A stretch of 64,000 bases of DNA from NCBI GenBank assembly GCA_028291515.1, contig JAQGHU010000069.1, positions 62,001 to 126,000 on the forward strand. The letters are read 5' to 3'. Below are positions 14,270 to 40,523 of this stretch, one piece after another. Position 1 is the first letter of the stretch; every line of letters starts with the position of its first letter. A program made the position numbers and the translations under genes. The notes under the pieces are model-generated. The model was not told the origin of the DNA. It was given only the letters and a program-made list of their open reading frames with translations, and ran no database searches. The stretch is from Schlesneria sp. (lineage in GTDB: Bacteria; Planctomycetota; Planctomycetia; Planctomycetales; Planctomycetaceae).

Positions 14270-15012
14270 GGATAGATGAATGAAGTCGAGGTCCCAGCCC
14301 TCGTGAGGTTAGCTAAAGGAAGGCCCCTGGTTGCCCAGGAGCCCCTTGGAACTCACCAGAACTCGGTTGGCGATTCCCACAACAGGCGTTCACCCCTGCG
14401 AGGGCCGTGATCTGGCGAGCATTCAGGACAACATTGAATTGCGGTTGGCTGACTGAGGTTGGCTGGTTGCAGCGTCTCAGTCACGATGTTGCATGAAAGC
14501 ATCACGCGTGCCGCAATGTTGCGGGAAGTCGACATTCGCCAAACGGCGTGAGAAGAAACGCGCGGAGCATTGAAGCAACTTCTGATGCCGCTTCACTCTT
14601 AGACGACCGCGTTCAGCGAGTCGAATATTTAATCGGCATGCCACCTCGATCGGCTCGGCGGTGGCGATGTTGCCGAACGTCAACAGACTGTCAATGACAG
14701 GCATTCAGTTCATTGAACGTATCGCCCCTGCTCGAACTGGCCTGGTTGACCAATTCGAGGCCTTTCCTTCGTGTATCCTATTACGATTCTGCCGGTTAGT
14801 GCGATCGTCGACAAAGCATTGTGACGATCAGTCCGAACAGGCAAATCCACCATGACGCAACGTCTATGCCGAAGAATCCGGCTGTGCGAGAAATGCGGAG
14901 TCGGCGGCCAGCAATAGTGGCGACGCTCGCACGGTGTCCACATCCGTCGAACGCTGCTATTGTCGTGCGGACTGATCGGAATTGGCTGCTGTTTACTGAT
15001 GGAGCTGTGACT

Positions 15013-34728: not shown

Positions 34729-34998
34729 GGCTACGGTCCACGGGAATCGGGGTTCTTTGCACTGATGCGTTATGCCATTCCCTGGTGCGCGAAGCTAGAT
34801 GGCATTTCGGAGATTTTGTCTCTTTGTGGAGGAAATCCTGTTTGATCGACTGACAGATTTTGACACCCACGGACAGTTTTTGACATTGGGGGACAAAACG
34901 GCCCTGTTTTTGGCGGTTTTCCTCAAAAAAGTGGATGTTTTGTGACAGATCGCGATCTTGAGTCACGCAGTCGCTGAATGCACGCCGTGACCCACGAC

Positions 34999-35102
34999 GG
35001 GTGGCCGGTGCCGGAGCGTTTCGCGAAGCCCCGGTTTGTTCACGCGGCACCTGCTATCAAAGTCGATCGACCATCGACCGGGGCTTCCCGTTGGTCCAGC
35101 CT
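34999..35102 (+). repeat. Left copy of a ~104-bp inverted repeat flanking the cassette array
   Basis: gggtggccggtgccggagcgtttcgcgaagccccggt...gatcgaccatcgaccggggcttcccgttggtccagcct; ~90% identical by eye to the reverse complement of 40524-40627. Confidence 0.85.
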
Positions 35103-35257
35103 GCCGCGCAATTCTCAGATGGAGAATGCAGATTCTGTATTGAAGCCAGACTTCTGGCGGTTTAGCCTAGCGACGATGTCGCGCGGCTAAGCACTGCGCA
35201 GAAAGTCCATTTATACAGAAACAATTCTGTCTAATTACAGTTCGGCGGACATAGATT

Positions 35258-35629
35258 ATGGCTAACTTTAGAGCAGAACGCCTCTTCATCCGTATCGCTG
35301 GCGAGTTAGACTTCGATCCCAACGAAGGGATCAACGCGGAAGAGTTTGCTTTCGCGATGGTTTGTGATGGCGGTGCTTACGATCGCCCCTCTTTGCAAGA
35401 CTACACGTTCGCGCCTTATGACTCTCCGCGGTGGTTTCGAGCATCGAAAGGACTGGCCACAATTCGAGCGGTGATCGCCGAAGAAGAGGCCAAGCTCACG
35501 TCTGCCACTCCAGAACAGAGAACTCACATTGAAAACAAGATTGAGGTCCTCCGAGTGGTTGAGGACAAGCTCGATTCCATAGATCTCAAAGATTACAAGT
35601 TCCATTTTCTGGCTCGCGACCTCGGATAG
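35258..35629 (+). CDS. Cassette ORF 1, hypothetical protein
   Basis: 123 aa MANFRAERLFIRIAGELDFDPNEGINAEEFAFAMVCDGG...; starts 12 nt after GTTCGGC (35240) and ends 30 nt before GCCGAAC (35659). Confidence 0.7.
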   Translation: MANFRAERLFIRIAGELDFDPNEGINAEEFAFAMVCDGGAYDRPSLQDYTFAPYDSPRWFRASKGLATIRAVIAEEEAKLTSATPEQRTHIENKIEVLRVVEDKLDSIDLKDYKFHFLARDLG

Positions 35630-35658
35630 GGGATGTCACGGTCCAGAAGGTCAACAAG

Positions 35659-35683
35659 GCCGAACGAGACGGTCAACTTGACC
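35659..35683 (+). repeat. 5' half of an interrupted attC site
   Basis: GCCGAAC GAGAC GGTCAACTTGACC. Confidence 0.75.
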
Positions 35684-35719
35684 TGAACTGCCCACCAAAC
35701 AAGGATGATTCTGTAACGA

Positions 35720-35763
35720 AACTAGGACAAAATCAGTAGCGAAAAGCTCGTTTTGTCCTAGTT
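35720..35763. repeat. 13-bp perfect inverted repeat AACTAGGACAAAA / TTTTGTCCTAGTT
   Basis: Arms 35720-35732 and 35751-35763; 18-nt loop. Confidence 0.85.
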
Positions 35764-35864
35764 GTTTGTCCTATTCCGTATGAAAAATACTTCTTGGATT
35801 CACTTCCAATGGGCTTTTACTACCGCCCATCTTTCTGTGTTCGTGCACCCGTGACGAGGCTGGC

Positions 35865-36284
35865 TCAAAGCTCACGCTCGATTTGTTGAACGGCTGCAAT
35901 CCATTCTGGACGACTGATCTGCAGGCGGGCTTGCTTCTCCCATTTTGCGGGGCTACGACGGCACCATTTATATCCGCCTGCATCAGTCATCCAGAGATAT
36001 TCGTGCCATTTGAGTGCGTCAAATCCGAAGTCCTGCTTAGTAATATCAACAAGAAACGCTCTGCCGGAACGGATGCGGTCAATAAGCCCCTGTTCTGGCA
36101 AAACAGGAACCCATCCGCCGAGCAATTGATGCATGCCGAGTTGTGCTGGGGTCATCCTCATTTTCCGCTCCGTAAACGAACAAACCCCAGCTTCTCGCTG
36201 ATCGCCCCGAGTCATTTCGTCGCCAATTGCCATCCTTCCATGTTGCTGAATCAAGATTGTCCTAGTGCAATTGTCTTTCGTCAA
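35865..36284 (-). CDS. Hypothetical protein, antisense to the cassette array, inside the attC interruption
   Basis: Up to 139 aa, ...MRMTPAQLGMHQLLGGWVPVLPEQGLIDRIRSGRAFLVDITKQDFGFDALKWHEYLWMTDAGGYKWCRRSPAKWEKQARLQISRPEWIAAVQQIEREL; flanked by TTGTCCTAG motifs. Confidence 0.6.
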   Translation of the reverse strand: MTKDNCTRTILIQQHGRMAIGDEMTRGDQREAGVCSFTERKMRMTPAQLGMHQLLGGWVPVLPEQGLIDRIRSGRAFLVDITKQDFGFDALKWHEYLWMTDAGGYKWCRRSPAKWEKQARLQISRPEWIAAVQQIEREL

Positions 36285-36369
36285 TTGTCCTAGCCAAGCC
36301 TTGACGTAAATGTTGAAATGATAGGCAATTGTGTCCGCCGAAGTCGTCTTGGGTGGAATGGCGGGATGA

Positions 36370-36462
36370 CAACTTGACCCGCAGTCGCTGGCGGCTCAAA
36401 GTATTGGCGTGTTGATCGGAAGCCCGTCGTTTATCGCGGGCAAGTTACCTTTGACGTTCGGC
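36370..36462 (+). repeat. 3' part of the interrupted attC site
   Basis: CAACTTGACCCGCAGTCGCTGGCGGCTC...ATCGCGGGCAAGTTACCTTTGACGTTCGGC. Confidence 0.8.
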
Positions 36463-36466
36463 GGCA

Positions 36467-36847
36467 ATGTTACAAGTAATTCTGAACGTGCCGCAGTTAT
36501 CACAGATGCAGTTGGCATCGCGTGCCATCGCCCTGATTTCAGTACCGTGGTCACCGTGGCCACAGAAGTCGCGAGAGGTGTTGGTTTCGTTAGAGACCTC
36601 GCAAGAACAATGGTCTCCTCAATGTCCCGTGGAATTCTTCGATGTTTGGCCGGAACGTGACGCGGAACTGAACCGTTGGTATGAGATGCAATGTGTCGAT
36701 GCGGAGCCAAAGTTCGAGTTGCATGGTCACGGTTATGGCCCGCTGTGGTGGCTGGCGAATGGCAAGGTTCTGGAATGCCTTGCCAAGCCGTATGATCTTC
36801 CGCTGAAGGAAATTCAGCGGCGTTCGGCAGCGATCTTCCAACGGTGA
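36467..36847 (+). CDS. Cassette ORF, hypothetical protein
   Basis: 126 aa, ATG 4 nt after attC R'; C-terminal part ...FFDVWPERDAELNRWYEMQCVDAEPKFELHGHGYGPLWWLANGKVLECLAKPYDLPLKEIQRRSAAIFQR is protein-like, N-terminus less certain. Confidence 0.55.
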   Translation: MLQVILNVPQLSQMQLASRAIALISVPWSPWPQKSREVLVSLETSQEQWSPQCPVEFFDVWPERDAELNRWYEMQCVDAEPKFELHGHGYGPLWWLANGKVLECLAKPYDLPLKEIQRRSAAIFQR

Positions 36848-36883
36848 TTGCAGCCAAACCGTAGAGACCGCGTTAGCATTATG

Positions 36884-36991
36884 GCCGAACGAGGCGGTCA
36901 ACTTGACCCGCAGTCGTTGGCGGTTCAAAGTATTGGCGCGCTGATTGGAAGCCCGTCTTCAATCGCGGGCAAGTTACCTTGAACGTTCGGC
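36884..36991 (+). repeat. attC site (108 bp)
   Basis: GCCGAACGAGGCGGTCAACTTGACCCGCAG...CAAGTTACCTTGAACGTTCGGC. Confidence 0.88.
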
Positions 36992-37009
36992 AGGAAAGAA
37001 AACAGCGAC

Positions 37010-37348
37010 ATGACCGCTGCTGACCTTCATCGTTGGATTGAGTCGTACAACTGGGACGACGGTTTGGCTCCGATGTGGCCCATCGTCGACAGCCCACAGA
37101 CTGAGTACGCTACAGCACTGTTGATCTATTGGCGACTTGACGGCCCATGGTTGACGTCAGAACCTGGGGACGTGAATAGCGAGGCGAAGACACTTCAAGA
37201 CCGACTTCGAAGTCGGCTATTGAGTGGCCAGTACACCGTCGGTTCATGCCATTTCGACCCAACGGAGGAATTATCACAAGTCCAGATAATCAAACTGCGC
37301 AAGGCAGGATTGCCCGAGGTCTTGTTGGGATCGGTTAGTCACCGTTAA
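37010..37348 (+). CDS. Cassette ORF, DUF4274-like protein
   Basis: MTAADLHRWIESYNWDDGLAPMWPIVDSPQTEYATALLIYWRLDGPWL resembles DUF4274 (W-D-x-G ... DSP..D.aTALLiYW). Confidence 0.7.
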   Translation: MTAADLHRWIESYNWDDGLAPMWPIVDSPQTEYATALLIYWRLDGPWLTSEPGDVNSEAKTLQDRLRSRLLSGQYTVGSCHFDPTEELSQVQIIKLRKAGLPEVLLGSVSHR

Positions 37349-37383
37349 TGTCGCTATTTCAGTGGCGCTCCAGTTAAAACAGA

Positions 37384-37491
37384 GCCGAACCATTCGGTCA
37401 ACTTGACCCGCAGTCGCTGGCGGTTCAAAGTGTTGGCGTGTTGATTGGAAGCCCGTTATTGATCGCGGGCAAGTTACCTTTGGCGTTCGGC
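37384..37491 (+). repeat. attC site (108 bp)
   Basis: GCCGAACCATTCGGTCAACTTGACCC...CAAGTTACCTTTGGCGTTCGGC. Confidence 0.88.
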
Positions 37492-37507
37492 TGCGGAAGG
37501 TTATTTG

Positions 37508-37759
37508 ATGTCGGATCGCCGAATCATCAACCGGAACTATACTTGCCGATTCTGCGGCACAATCCGACGTGCTCCCGCTGATTACGTGCCGGGTGCGCCG
37601 CCGACACCGAGGTGCTGCGGGCAGCCTATGCAGTTACTATCGTACGAACAGACGGTCGCGGCTACGCAACTCTCGGAAGTCGCTAGGAAGGCTTGGCTTG
37701 ACGCTGGCGGCGATGTCGCGAAACGTGGTGGGAAACACCATTGGAAAGCTGTTTGGTAA
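37508..37759 (+). CDS. Cassette ORF, small Cys-rich (zinc-ribbon-like) protein
   Basis: MSDRRIINRNYTCRFCGTIRRAPADYVPGAPPTPRCCGQPMQLLSYEQTVAATQLSEVARKAWLDAGGD. Confidence 0.7.
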   Translation: MSDRRIINRNYTCRFCGTIRRAPADYVPGAPPTPRCCGQPMQLLSYEQTVAATQLSEVARKAWLDAGGDVAKRGGKHHWKAVW

Positions 37760-37824
37760 TCTCGCCAAGATTTCTATTGAATTAAAAGATCAGCTTGGTG
37801 ACTGGAGTCGGATAGTGAGCAATC

Positions 37825-37932
37825 GCCGAACGAGTCGGTCAACTTGACCCGCAGTCGCTGGTGGTTCACAGTGTTGGCTTGTTGATTGGAAGCTCGTCGT
37901 CAATCGCGGGCAAGATACCTTGGTCGTTCGGC
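37825..37932 (+). repeat. attC site (108 bp)
   Basis: GCCGAACGAGTCGGTCAACTTGACCC...CAAGATACCTTGGTCGTTCGGC. Confidence 0.88.
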
Positions 37933-37956
37933 AGAGTTCGCAGTCGTAAGGAAAGC

Positions 37957-38379
37957 ATGACATATCGAACCGTCATCCTTTCCAGTTTCGAGGCGTTTCT
38001 CGCATCCGAGTACCCTGGTGAAGCATATTCGCAAGCCGACTTCGAGCCTCGCAATGAAATGCTCTCCCGCTTTCCATACTCAGTGATGCTGGAACTCTCG
38101 TTCGCAGAACTCGATTATGCCAATCGGTGGTGCTGGCACCAGTTCGGTTCACCTCGTGGTGAATGTTATGATACGCAATCTGACTATCTTACCTGTGACA
38201 TCCAGACGCCTCACTGCCATCCCGGAACATGGGCTTGGGAATGGTTCGTGAAAACTGAGTACAACTTTGGCTTCAACGAATGGTATTTTTCCTCAAGCTC
38301 TCAAATGGAACAATTTCTCGGTTTTGTCCCACTGATAAACTGGGGCGATAAGTACCCGGTGGTCTATCCAGTTTATTAA
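37957..38379 (+). CDS. Cassette ORF, hypothetical protein
   Basis: MTYRTVILSSFEAFLASEYPGEAYSQADFEPRNEMLSRFPYSVMLELSF...; AAGGAAAGC upstream of ATG; ORF-track start 37861 lies inside the attC. Confidence 0.7.
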   Translation: MTYRTVILSSFEAFLASEYPGEAYSQADFEPRNEMLSRFPYSVMLELSFAELDYANRWCWHQFGSPRGECYDTQSDYLTCDIQTPHCHPGTWAWEWFVKTEYNFGFNEWYFSSSSQMEQFLGFVPLINWGDKYPVVYPVY

Positions 38380-38394
38380 AAACAAACGACAACG

Positions 38395-38502
38395 GCCGAA
38401 CGAGGCGGTCAACTTGACCCGCAGTCGCTGGCGGTTCAAAGTGTTGGCGTGTTGATTGAAAGCCCGGCTTCAGTCGCTGGCAAGTTACCTTGAACGTTCG
38501 GC
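38395..38502 (+). repeat. attC site (108 bp)
   Basis: GCCGAACGAGGCGGTCAACTTGACCC...CTGGCAAGTTACCTTGAACGTTCGGC. Confidence 0.88.
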
Positions 38503-38508
38503 AGCAGC

Positions 38509-38763
38509 ATGCACCGGCTTGTCCTTCCAACACTTGTTTTTACGTTGGGGCATCTCTTCGTTTGGATGTCGGCCTTTGGCGTCTTCGTGGGACTTTTCTT
38601 GTGGCGCATGGACGTTCCCGGAGCAACGATTTGGGACAACAGTATCGCAACCTGCACGCTGGCAGTCCTATCCTTTCCAGTTGGTCTCGTGGCGTGGTTC
38701 ACAATTCGACCCCATCTACACGCTTTCGACTGGGCAGTTGTTTTGGCTAATAGCGCACTTTGA
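38509..38763 (+). CDS. Cassette ORF, small membrane protein
   Basis: MHRLVLPTLVFTLGHLFVWMSAFGVFVGLFLWRMDVPGATIWDNSIATCTLAVLSFPVGLVAWFTIRPHLHAFDWAVVLANSAL; begins 6 nt after attC. Confidence 0.65.
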   Translation: MHRLVLPTLVFTLGHLFVWMSAFGVFVGLFLWRMDVPGATIWDNSIATCTLAVLSFPVGLVAWFTIRPHLHAFDWAVVLANSAL

Positions 38764-38845
38764 GGATATTGTCTGGCCTCGACGTGGACGTCGTCGAAAT
38801 GCCGAAAAAGCATGGCTTCGCGTTTGCGATCGCATTACCCCAAGG

Positions 38846-38953
38846 GCCGAACAACACGCTCAACTTGACCCGCAGTCGCTGGTGGCTCAAAGTGTTGGAG
38901 TGTTGATTGAAAGCCCGTCATTGATCGCGGGCAAGTTACCTTGAACGTTCGGC
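38846..38953 (+). repeat. attC site (108 bp)
   Basis: GCCGAACAACACGCTCAACTTGACCC...CAAGTTACCTTGAACGTTCGGC. Confidence 0.88.
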
Positions 38954-38977
38954 GAGCAAAAGACTTGAGATAACTTC

Positions 38978-39445
38978 GTGGGAAAAACGTACCTCCTCGT
39001 CAATCCAATTAAACGTGAGTTTGTCGACCCGATGCGCCTCAACGGAGGTTTTCAATGGGATGACGTTCTTACAGATCCGTTTTGTGTGCTTGTCCTAAAA
39101 CGCCTGATCGCTGACCCACCCAGAGGGACGACAGAAATTGATGGTCGTTGGACCGGTGACGCGGTCATCCTTCCTGCAGGATGGGGCGGAGAAGATAATT
39201 TACATGATCGCGCCAGCTTGGAGTTCACCGACATCAGTTATCTTGCACTCGCACGACTCTGTGACAAGGATAAAGTCTTCAATAATATCTTGAATCAGGC
39301 AATGGAAACGGATTCATTCTTTGTCGAGCTCTGCAATGCGCTACGAGAGTTTGCACCGGGGCTCCTGTTAGATAAGCCGTTCACCACTGTGTTGGGAGTA
39401 GATTGGAGCAGACGGTATAAGAAAGTGTGCGCGCAACGATATTGA
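38978..39445 (+). CDS. Cassette ORF, hypothetical protein
   Basis: GTG start; 155 aa MGKTYLLVNPIKREFVDPMRLNGGFQWDDVLTDPFCVLVLKRLIADPPRGTTEIDGRWTGDAVILPAGWGGEDN... Confidence 0.75.
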   Translation: MGKTYLLVNPIKREFVDPMRLNGGFQWDDVLTDPFCVLVLKRLIADPPRGTTEIDGRWTGDAVILPAGWGGEDNLHDRASLEFTDISYLALARLCDKDKVFNNILNQAMETDSFFVELCNALREFAPGLLLDKPFTTVLGVDWSRRYKKVCAQRY

Positions 39446-39543
39446 AAGCATGAGGCCGAAATCGGGTAAGGGCGGCCATTGCTGACCGCCCTCCCCACAC
39501 CACCTAGCATGCGGCAGGGTGGCCGGGTCTGGAGCGTCTTCGC

Positions 39544-39725
39544 GAAGGCCCGGTGGAGGTTCAAGCGGCGTTGTCGGTGAATAACCGTGACCTGCCAGGC
39601 TCTGTTGAGGGCATGGACTGCCGAGATGTGGCCGGGGGTCGACTGCTTCAATGTGCATGAAACTTGGATGCGTGGTGCCAGACCGGGTCTTCGCGAAGAC
39701 GCTCCAGACCCGGCCACCCTGCCGC
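39544..39725 (+). repeat. Direct repeat copy 1 (~182 bp)
   Basis: gaaggcccggtggaggttcaag...gttgtcggtgaataaccgtgacctgccaggctctgttgaggg...agaccgggtcttcgcgaagacgctccagacccggccaccctgccgc. Confidence 0.85.
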
Positions 39726-39956
39726 AAAATGTTCCCTCGCACAATGTGCAGTGGATGCCAAGCCAGGGTTGGGCCGTCGATCAGAATTGAACTGGCCCCA
39801 GTCTGATTGTCTCCCGTCTGTCGTCCAACGATCATCGGGACCGCATCGGCACTGGCGATCCAAAGCCATCGCCAGTGGCACCCAAACCCAGTCTCTTGAC
39901 GTCGAAGCGTTTCTGTTCATCGTCCTCATCAACCGTGCGGCCAGTGCCACCCCGCC

Positions 39957-40148
39957 GAAGGCCCGGCGGAGGTTCAAGACGTGTTGTCGGTGAATAACCG
40001 TGACCTGCCAGGCTCTGTTGAGGCATGGACTGCCGAGATGTGGCCGGGAGTCGACTGCTTCAATGTGCGTGAAACTTGGATGAGTGGTGACAGACCGGGT
40101 CTTCGCGAAGACGCTCCAGACCGCTCCAGACCCGGCCACCCTTCCGCC
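39957..40148 (+). repeat. Direct repeat copy 2 (~192 bp, with an internal 10-bp tandem duplication gctccagacc)
   Basis: gaaggcccggcggaggttcaag...gttgtcggtgaataaccgtgacctgccaggctctgttgagg...gctccagaccgctccagacccggccacccttccgcc. Confidence 0.85.
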
Positions 40149-40523
40149 AATACGTTCGAATCGATCGCTGTCGCAGCGAAAAACAAGACGGTAAAGGCAT
40201 TACGACAGGTGCCATAGACTAGCGTAAAGCTCATTTCGCAGTCCCGTCATCTTTGAGCCGTATTTCAGCAGCAGAAACCGCCGATCAGTTCATCGAGCAG
40301 CTGATCCCAATAGAAAACGACCTGTTGAAACCTGTTGATCTTGTCACGAACGGCGTACGTAGGCACCTCGATACGGCGTTGTCGGGGCTGGACTAGTGCA
40401 TTGTCACAGATAAGAATGGGGGGTTGGGTTTCTCCGTCCAACAATCCAAGCTCCTAAGATTCTGGGGGTTCGGGCAAGGCCCTCAACCCCAGCCACCCTA
40501 AAATTAAGCGGTGACAAAGCACT

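Follow-up and report, generated by a model that had tools for sequence, protein, structure and literature searches.

The window analyzed here is a 64,000-nt stretch of a Schlesneria-like planctomycete genome (G000:C60:62001-126000, in an 8.59-Mb draft assembly of 119 contigs), and it contains an array of small open reading frames (ORFs) separated by a highly uniform repeat. Between 35659 and 38953 there are five complete 108-bp repeats, a further copy devoid of R'' and a left half, all in a single orientation. The complete copies begin at 36884, 37384, 37825, 38395 and 38846, and each ends 107 nt further on; comparison of the repeats confirmed these positions and the split copy, which had been picked out in an earlier, sequence-only reading of this DNA that took the locus for an integron-type cassette array. 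That reading also placed short ORFs soon after the GTTCGGC boxes, and a plus-strand ORF with an ATG start does begin 4-24 nt after six of the seven R' boxes of the window. The seventh is followed, after 24 nt, by an ORF with a GTG start at 38978-39445, downstream of which there is no intact attC site.

The cassette ORFs, all on the plus strand, are small and mostly obscure. The first one (35258-35629, 123 aa) belongs to no family, and the same holds for those at 36467-36847 (126 aa) and 37957-38379 (140 aa), as well as for the last one at 38978-39445 (155 aa), 3' of which a possible R'' remnant, GCCGAAAT, occurs at 39455. The product of 37010-37348 (112 aa) matches DUF4274 (PF14096) with an E value of 9.8e-12 and 45.1 bits, against a cut-off of 27. 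The 83-aa protein encoded at 37508-37759 contains cysteines, and its matches to desulfoferrodoxin are sub-threshold only, while 38509-38763 (84 aa, no family) encodes a hydrophobic, possibly small membrane protein. DUF4274 was the only Pfam family found among the cassettes; NCBIfam gave no match over its cut-offs, PADLOC and PHROGs gave none, and a plasmid search with the DUF4274 protein was also negative.

The repeats have the layout GCCGAAC-N5-GGT(C)AACTTG(A)CCCGC ... GCGGG-CAAGTT-ACC-N6-GTTCGGC, in which the bracketed bases are unpaired. The outer boxes are exact complements and the inner arms pair, as first described; the C had been recognized as an extrahelical base, which stands, although it was counted as the only one, and a second is provided by the A after AACTTG. 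On the bottom strand, these two bases of the L'' side are G and T, both extrahelical; they are near-universal among 44 sites and are also present in divergent attC sites outside the Schlesneria family. The core triplets AAC/GTT are exact in all five full copies of the window. The R box GCCGAAC/GTTCGGC misses RYYYAAC/GTTRRRY at one position per side, which the sequence-only reading had noticed, and both departures pair together. This consensus is given in the literature as a description (PMC12901181). Because relatives carry GCCTAAC/GTTAGGC, the odd base of GCCGAAC is one half of a compensated pair. Conformity to the R box consensus is, in addition, not known to be an absolute requirement for attC, and since the consensus is descriptive, the departure was not taken to exclude such sites.

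A covariance model of the bottom strand recovered the complete repeats on the plus strand at 36884-36991 (131.4 bits), 37384-37491 (134 bits), 37825-37932 (124.8 bits), 38395-38502 (127.1 bits) and 38846-38953 (126.7 bits); the six copies that have right arms score 97-134 bits, with E values from 1e-25 to 3e-36, well beyond chance, although the five full window copies were themselves among the sequences used to train the model. The consensus repeat used as a query found 40 matches in the 8.59-Mb genome, and the model finds 52 attC sites of the same family on many contigs. A scan against Rfam returned no attC family, only sub-threshold chance matches.

The arms are paired in 95.7% of the cells over the 44 sites. 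When divergent attC sites were added to the alignment, two-sided changes appeared at 8 of the 21 pairs (17 cells), a level reached in 0 of 500 shuffles, and control alignments that had been slid out of register all scored far below the attC pairing. The distant sites were a second attC type from the same arrays, sites from a Burkholderiales metagenome-assembled genome (L104) and sites from two IMG/VR contigs (L124 and L125). Those of L104, L124 and L125 share the L core and have the textbook R box GTTAGGC/GCCTAAC, except that L125, which has two R boxes, reads GCATAAC in one. The combination of a Schlesneria-type L core with a canonical R box thus extends to a second phylum and to contigs with a viral classification. 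The second attC type is shorter, about 91 bp (L030:13362-13452, L138:2553-2643, L091:1797-1887 and L116:3154-3244), and one of its members belongs to the first cassette after an attI site beside an intact integrase.

On this anatomy and on the compensatory changes, the repeats are to be read as attC sites. Some observations weigh against this interpretation, or against that of an array deprived of its integrase. In the Schlesneria family alone the pairs are conserved and covariation does not exceed that of the shuffles, there being too little divergence, so that the signal needs the distant attC sites, and the alignment was fitted to the attC structure and leans in its favor. The unconstrained folds contain the L stem in just 28 of the 44 sites, and the bottom strand of single sites is no more stable than the top strand. 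Finally, the assembly is a draft from which an intact intI gene could be missing. As for folding, the R stem forms in 39 of the 44 unconstrained folds, and forcing both the R and L stems on the bottom strand carries a mean penalty of 1.8 kcal/mol relative to the free minimum. The anticipated bottom-strand hairpin is therefore reachable, with a variable L stem and no preference for the strand, and the free folding of single sites counts as the weaker evidence.

The head of the array provides a second line of evidence. Comparisons within the genus spanned 15 genomes, of which G012, a sister species, is the nearest relative. The 158 bp at 35099-35256 of the window are about 91% identical to the stretch of G012 that leads from an intact intI to its first cassette (G012:C188, L138:1818-1972). 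The identity extends to ...CTAATTACAGTT and then ceases; with this homology, and with its end at the crossover point G^TT, the window array begins in an attI site, attI-A, located on the plus strand at 35099-35240 with the G of G^TT as its last base. The sequence-only reading had overlooked this site. A second attI lineage occurs at C32 and C102 in this genome and at C74, C147 and C24 in G012, and it ends in ...ACCTGTT, except for C24 (ACCTGAT). Just upstream of the crossover, attI-A contains a perfect inverted repeat, ACAGAA-acaa-TTCTGT (35215-35230), which is conserved in G012 and is possibly a binding site for a regulator or for the integrase.

A further property is peculiar to integrons. 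In an array, the terminal R'' box of a cassette and its initial TTNNNN derive from the one attC of the circular form, and the R' box of a repeat belongs to the next cassette. Among the 19 cassettes of the genus in which the two boxes to be compared differ, R'' fits the start of its own cassette better than it fits the R' within the same repeat in 16, worse in two and equally in one, with 12 mismatches in total against the cassette start and 34 against R'; the count is inflated by the decay of boxes at array ends. Independent of this decay are three exact non-standard pairs, namely GTTCGCC->GGCGAAC (L030), GTTCTGC->GCAGAAC (L138, the first cassette after attI) and GTTATCT->AGATAAC (L116). Such a pattern would not be predicted for a self-contained hairpin or a repetitive extragenic palindromic (REP) element.

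This bears on the view that small genes were expanded here by ordinary duplication and that the repeat is a hairpin terminator or a REP-like element. The high uniformity and hairpin-forming capacity of the repeats, and the lack of known functions in the ORFs between them, would suit it. However, none of the ORFs is a copy of another, the repeats have both extrahelical bases and the array an attI site, similarity ends at G^TT, R'' covaries with the R' of the previous repeat, and in the sister species an array of this kind is headed by an intact IntI, all of which make duplication exceedingly improbable.

The sequence-only reading reported no integrase nearby, and a search with TIGR02249 likewise found none on the contig of the window. 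With six attC sites detected by the model and zero intI matches in the window, the locus corresponds to a CALIN, that is, a cluster of (at least two) attC sites lacking an integron integrase (Cury et al., IntegronFinder; PMC9024848, PMC8618304). In the whole genome, a single match exceeds the TIGR02249 cut-off (C32:27754-28422), and it heads another array of the same attC type. Its reading frame of 389 aa is similar to IntI4 of Vibrio cholerae (2a3v, E 6e-50), the patch region included, and it stops soon after ...FPAKNLSQDPRS; the C-terminal third, with the HxxR, H and Tyr residues, is missing and is not supplied by any other frame. The recombinase with an IntI patch for which the earlier reading suggested a search thus exists, minus its C-terminus. 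The other tyrosine recombinases of the genome found by this search skip the patch positions. In G012, the counterpart of the C32 integrase is even shorter, and IntI-A is intact beside attI, with 465.6 bits for TIGR02249, the patch, the R..H-x-x-R..H..Y residues and the motifs HTLRH and IYTH; additional intact IntI proteins are encoded in G001 and G006. The truncated C32 integron, together with its array, has a tRNA-Gln (ttg) gene on one side and, on the other, a partial repeat made of the 3' end of that gene plus about 90 bp downstream (L030:7468-7539 and ~14720-14830), which resembles an island in a tRNA gene.

This genome has yielded no integron integrase other than the remnant on C32, which lacks its C-terminus, so that the window array is probably frozen, barring an intact integrase gene that the assembly lacks. 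One way for this to occur would be the splitting of a complete, active integron by the assembly, with an intact IntI-A adjoining position 35099 in reality and a misjoin at a repeat or a gap. In agreement with this, attI-A stands there without an integrase gene, a dispersed repeat lies at the junction, the genome is in 119 contigs, the intI end of the sister-species contig also stops in short tandem repeats, and drafts overestimate CALINs according to IntegronFinder 2.0 (PMC9024848). Yet an independent assembly, that of the sister species, also shows an array at this position, bordered by the same repeat and again without intI, and the TIGR02249 search of a genome with an estimated completeness of 100% yielded the truncated gene only, so that a split integron is unlikely.

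The cassettes at this locus differ entirely between the sister species. The window and G012 align colinearly, with about 90-93% identity, up to 35101 and once more beyond about 40642; in the interval G012 carries an array of its own with three attC sites, no window cassette and no intI. Complete cassette replacement, not fixed paralogues, therefore distinguishes the two species at this place. Like the folding of the attC arms, this comparison had been named in the sequence-only reading as a test that could refute it, and neither of the two did so. When the window array was compared with the 15 genomes of the genus, essentially the attC sites and the ends of a segment interrupting one of them (see below) were matched, and no window cassette was shared at the DNA level elsewhere in the genus among the matches listed. 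The exceptions are two cassette ORFs that have a second copy in this same genome. The first cassette recurs, 88% identical, at G000:C59:1467-1841, directly behind the right half of a decayed attC, and so occupies both an attI and an attC in one genome; a homologue of ORF 37957-38379 (~62% at the amino acid level) is found at 203.5 kb of G000:C82, with no detectable attC. Other arrays are partly shared with G012 (C80/C82 and C80/C85), which fits expectation for sites that differ in age.

The attC model counts 59 sites in G012, and sites are present in 11 of the 15 genomes; among the relatives searched outside the genus, DNA similarity was limited to two marginal matches. The arrays of this genome are short (1-8 attC) and scattered over at least 12 contigs, and many sites are decayed or alone. 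No array of tens of attC or more was found, so the superintegron-like character proposed by the sequence-only reading is not supported, in contrast to its description of an integron-type, CALIN-like array with homogeneous attC sites in a planctomycete.

Such scattering raises the question of whether the cassettes were inserted off-target by an IntI acting in trans, with the CALIN arising in this way and not by the loss of an integrase. Many scattered arrays and lone attC sites in one genome would fit, insertion at attG sites has been established in other cases (cited in PMC12901181), and this route is listed among the origins of CALINs (PMC8618304). At the window locus it is disfavored by the attI site, since the first cassette sits there and not at an arbitrary position, and at two other loci (C80:286-300 kb and C93:30-38 kb) comparison with the sister species gave no clean empty site; off-target insertion is thus very unlikely. 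The borders of one tested array coincide with rearrangement breakpoints and dispersed repeats, and the sequences on either side of the C93 site, which contain dispersed palindromic repeats, are far from being neighbors in G012, where they map to separate places. These repeats, together with the one at the left border here, suggest that rearrangement probably helped to scatter the arrays.

The dispersed palindromic repeats (GGTGGCCGGGTCTGGAGCGTCTTCGCGAAG...) flank the window array on both sides, at 34996-35101, 39510-39726 and 40022-40150. The left one is the repeat that also borders the sister-species array at this position, and further, related copies adjoin another array and sit at a breakpoint of rearrangement relative to G012.

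Considering the attC anatomy, the attI homology, the G^TT boundaries, the cassette replacement between species and the integrase truncation, the locus is almost certainly a Schlesneria integron cassette array that retains attI and has no adjacent integrase gene, i.e., a CALIN that kept its attI. An integron integrase of the IntI-A type, ancestral or acting from elsewhere, would have joined circular cassettes to attI at G^TT by way of their attC sites, folded as bottom-strand hairpins, and every such recombination would have added one small, mostly promoterless ORF with its own attC. The neighboring integrase gene would have been lost later, or left behind as the segment formed by attI and the array moved between dispersed repeats.

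The split attC of the first cassette deserves separate mention. Its left half (R''-L'') lies at 35659-35683 on the plus strand, as located by repeat comparison, and the remainder (L''...L'-R') at 36370-36462, with no recognizable R'' and a cmsearch score of 97.2 bits for 36353-36462. The intervening 687 bp (35684-36369) interrupt the L'' arm and consist of a left module (~35684-35779), with a hairpin AACTAGGACAAAA..TTTTGTCCTAGTT, a right module (~36250-36369) and an ORF on the minus strand, opposite to the array (35865-36284, 139 aa, no family). A 10-bp duplication, CAACTTGACC, is found on both sides of the segment. In G011:C55 and G013:C778 an attC is interrupted at the identical L'' position, again with CAACTTGACC on both sides. 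Three Schlesneria genomes thus have such a segment (window 35684-36369, L098:526-1368 and L146). The three segments have similar left modules (a hairpin carrying GTAGGACAAA or CTAGGACAAA along with TTTTGTCCTAG) and similar right modules, and the ORFs between these conserved ends are unrelated, lying on the minus strand in two segments and on the plus strand in one. A model of the left module (R2) retrieved from the genus the three known copies and marginal matches, with no further clear copy; a viral contig with a similar hairpin had a weak R2 score of 17.6 bits and no attC match.

It is conceivable, though doubtful, that the segment is an undescribed small mobile module that enters the L'' arm of attC, creates a 10-bp duplication, has a hairpin and repeated CTAGGACAA motifs in its conserved ends and swaps the passenger gene between them in either orientation. 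The three segments could alternatively descend from one old insertion, the interior of which was replaced. IS1111-attC elements are known to target attC. Group II introns also occur in attC sites (PMC7923331), and the segment at 35684-36369 likewise hits a fixed attC position; unlike those elements, it shows no transposase or reverse transcriptase and has the duplication, different passengers and either orientation. Interruption of attC at one position in three species is a lead toward an attC-targeting element, and a mobile module, if real, would represent a second, nested layer of gene exchange within integron attC sites.

How does the array compare with known systems? It is similar to other CALINs in having at least two attC sites in one orientation, single small ORFs and no intI nearby, and it differs from CALINs in general in keeping attI at its head. 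Sedentary chromosomal integrons, such as those of Vibrio and Xanthomonas, have taxon-specific, homogeneous attC sites (PMC8352920, PMC8618304), and the attC sites of Schlesneria are likewise genus-specific and near-uniform, with cassettes of obscure function. In contrast to these integrons, Schlesneria has many short arrays and lone attC sites dispersed over the chromosome instead of one large array, and two attI/IntI lineages, one of which is degenerate in both species examined. Pseudogenes of intI are common, at about a third (PMC2426708). Integrons are known from planctomycetes, Rhodopirellula baltica among others (PMC2426708, PMC3108266), and an attC model for Planctomycetes has been published (PMC8352920); the phylum and the overall architecture agree, whereas the attC core GCCGAAC/GTTCGGC of Schlesneria is different. 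Among the papers searched, there was no report of an integron for Schlesneria. The novelty of the array is modest, because planctomycete integrons, CALINs and intI pseudogenes were already known.

The integron record of Schlesneria is unusually complete, as it includes attI, integrases of two lineages that have decayed to different degrees, genus-specific attC sites and one locus that holds entirely different cassettes in two sister species. With attI still at its head, the array shows directly its descent from an integron deprived of intI, and it indicates how at least one CALIN arose, with attI kept and intI gone.

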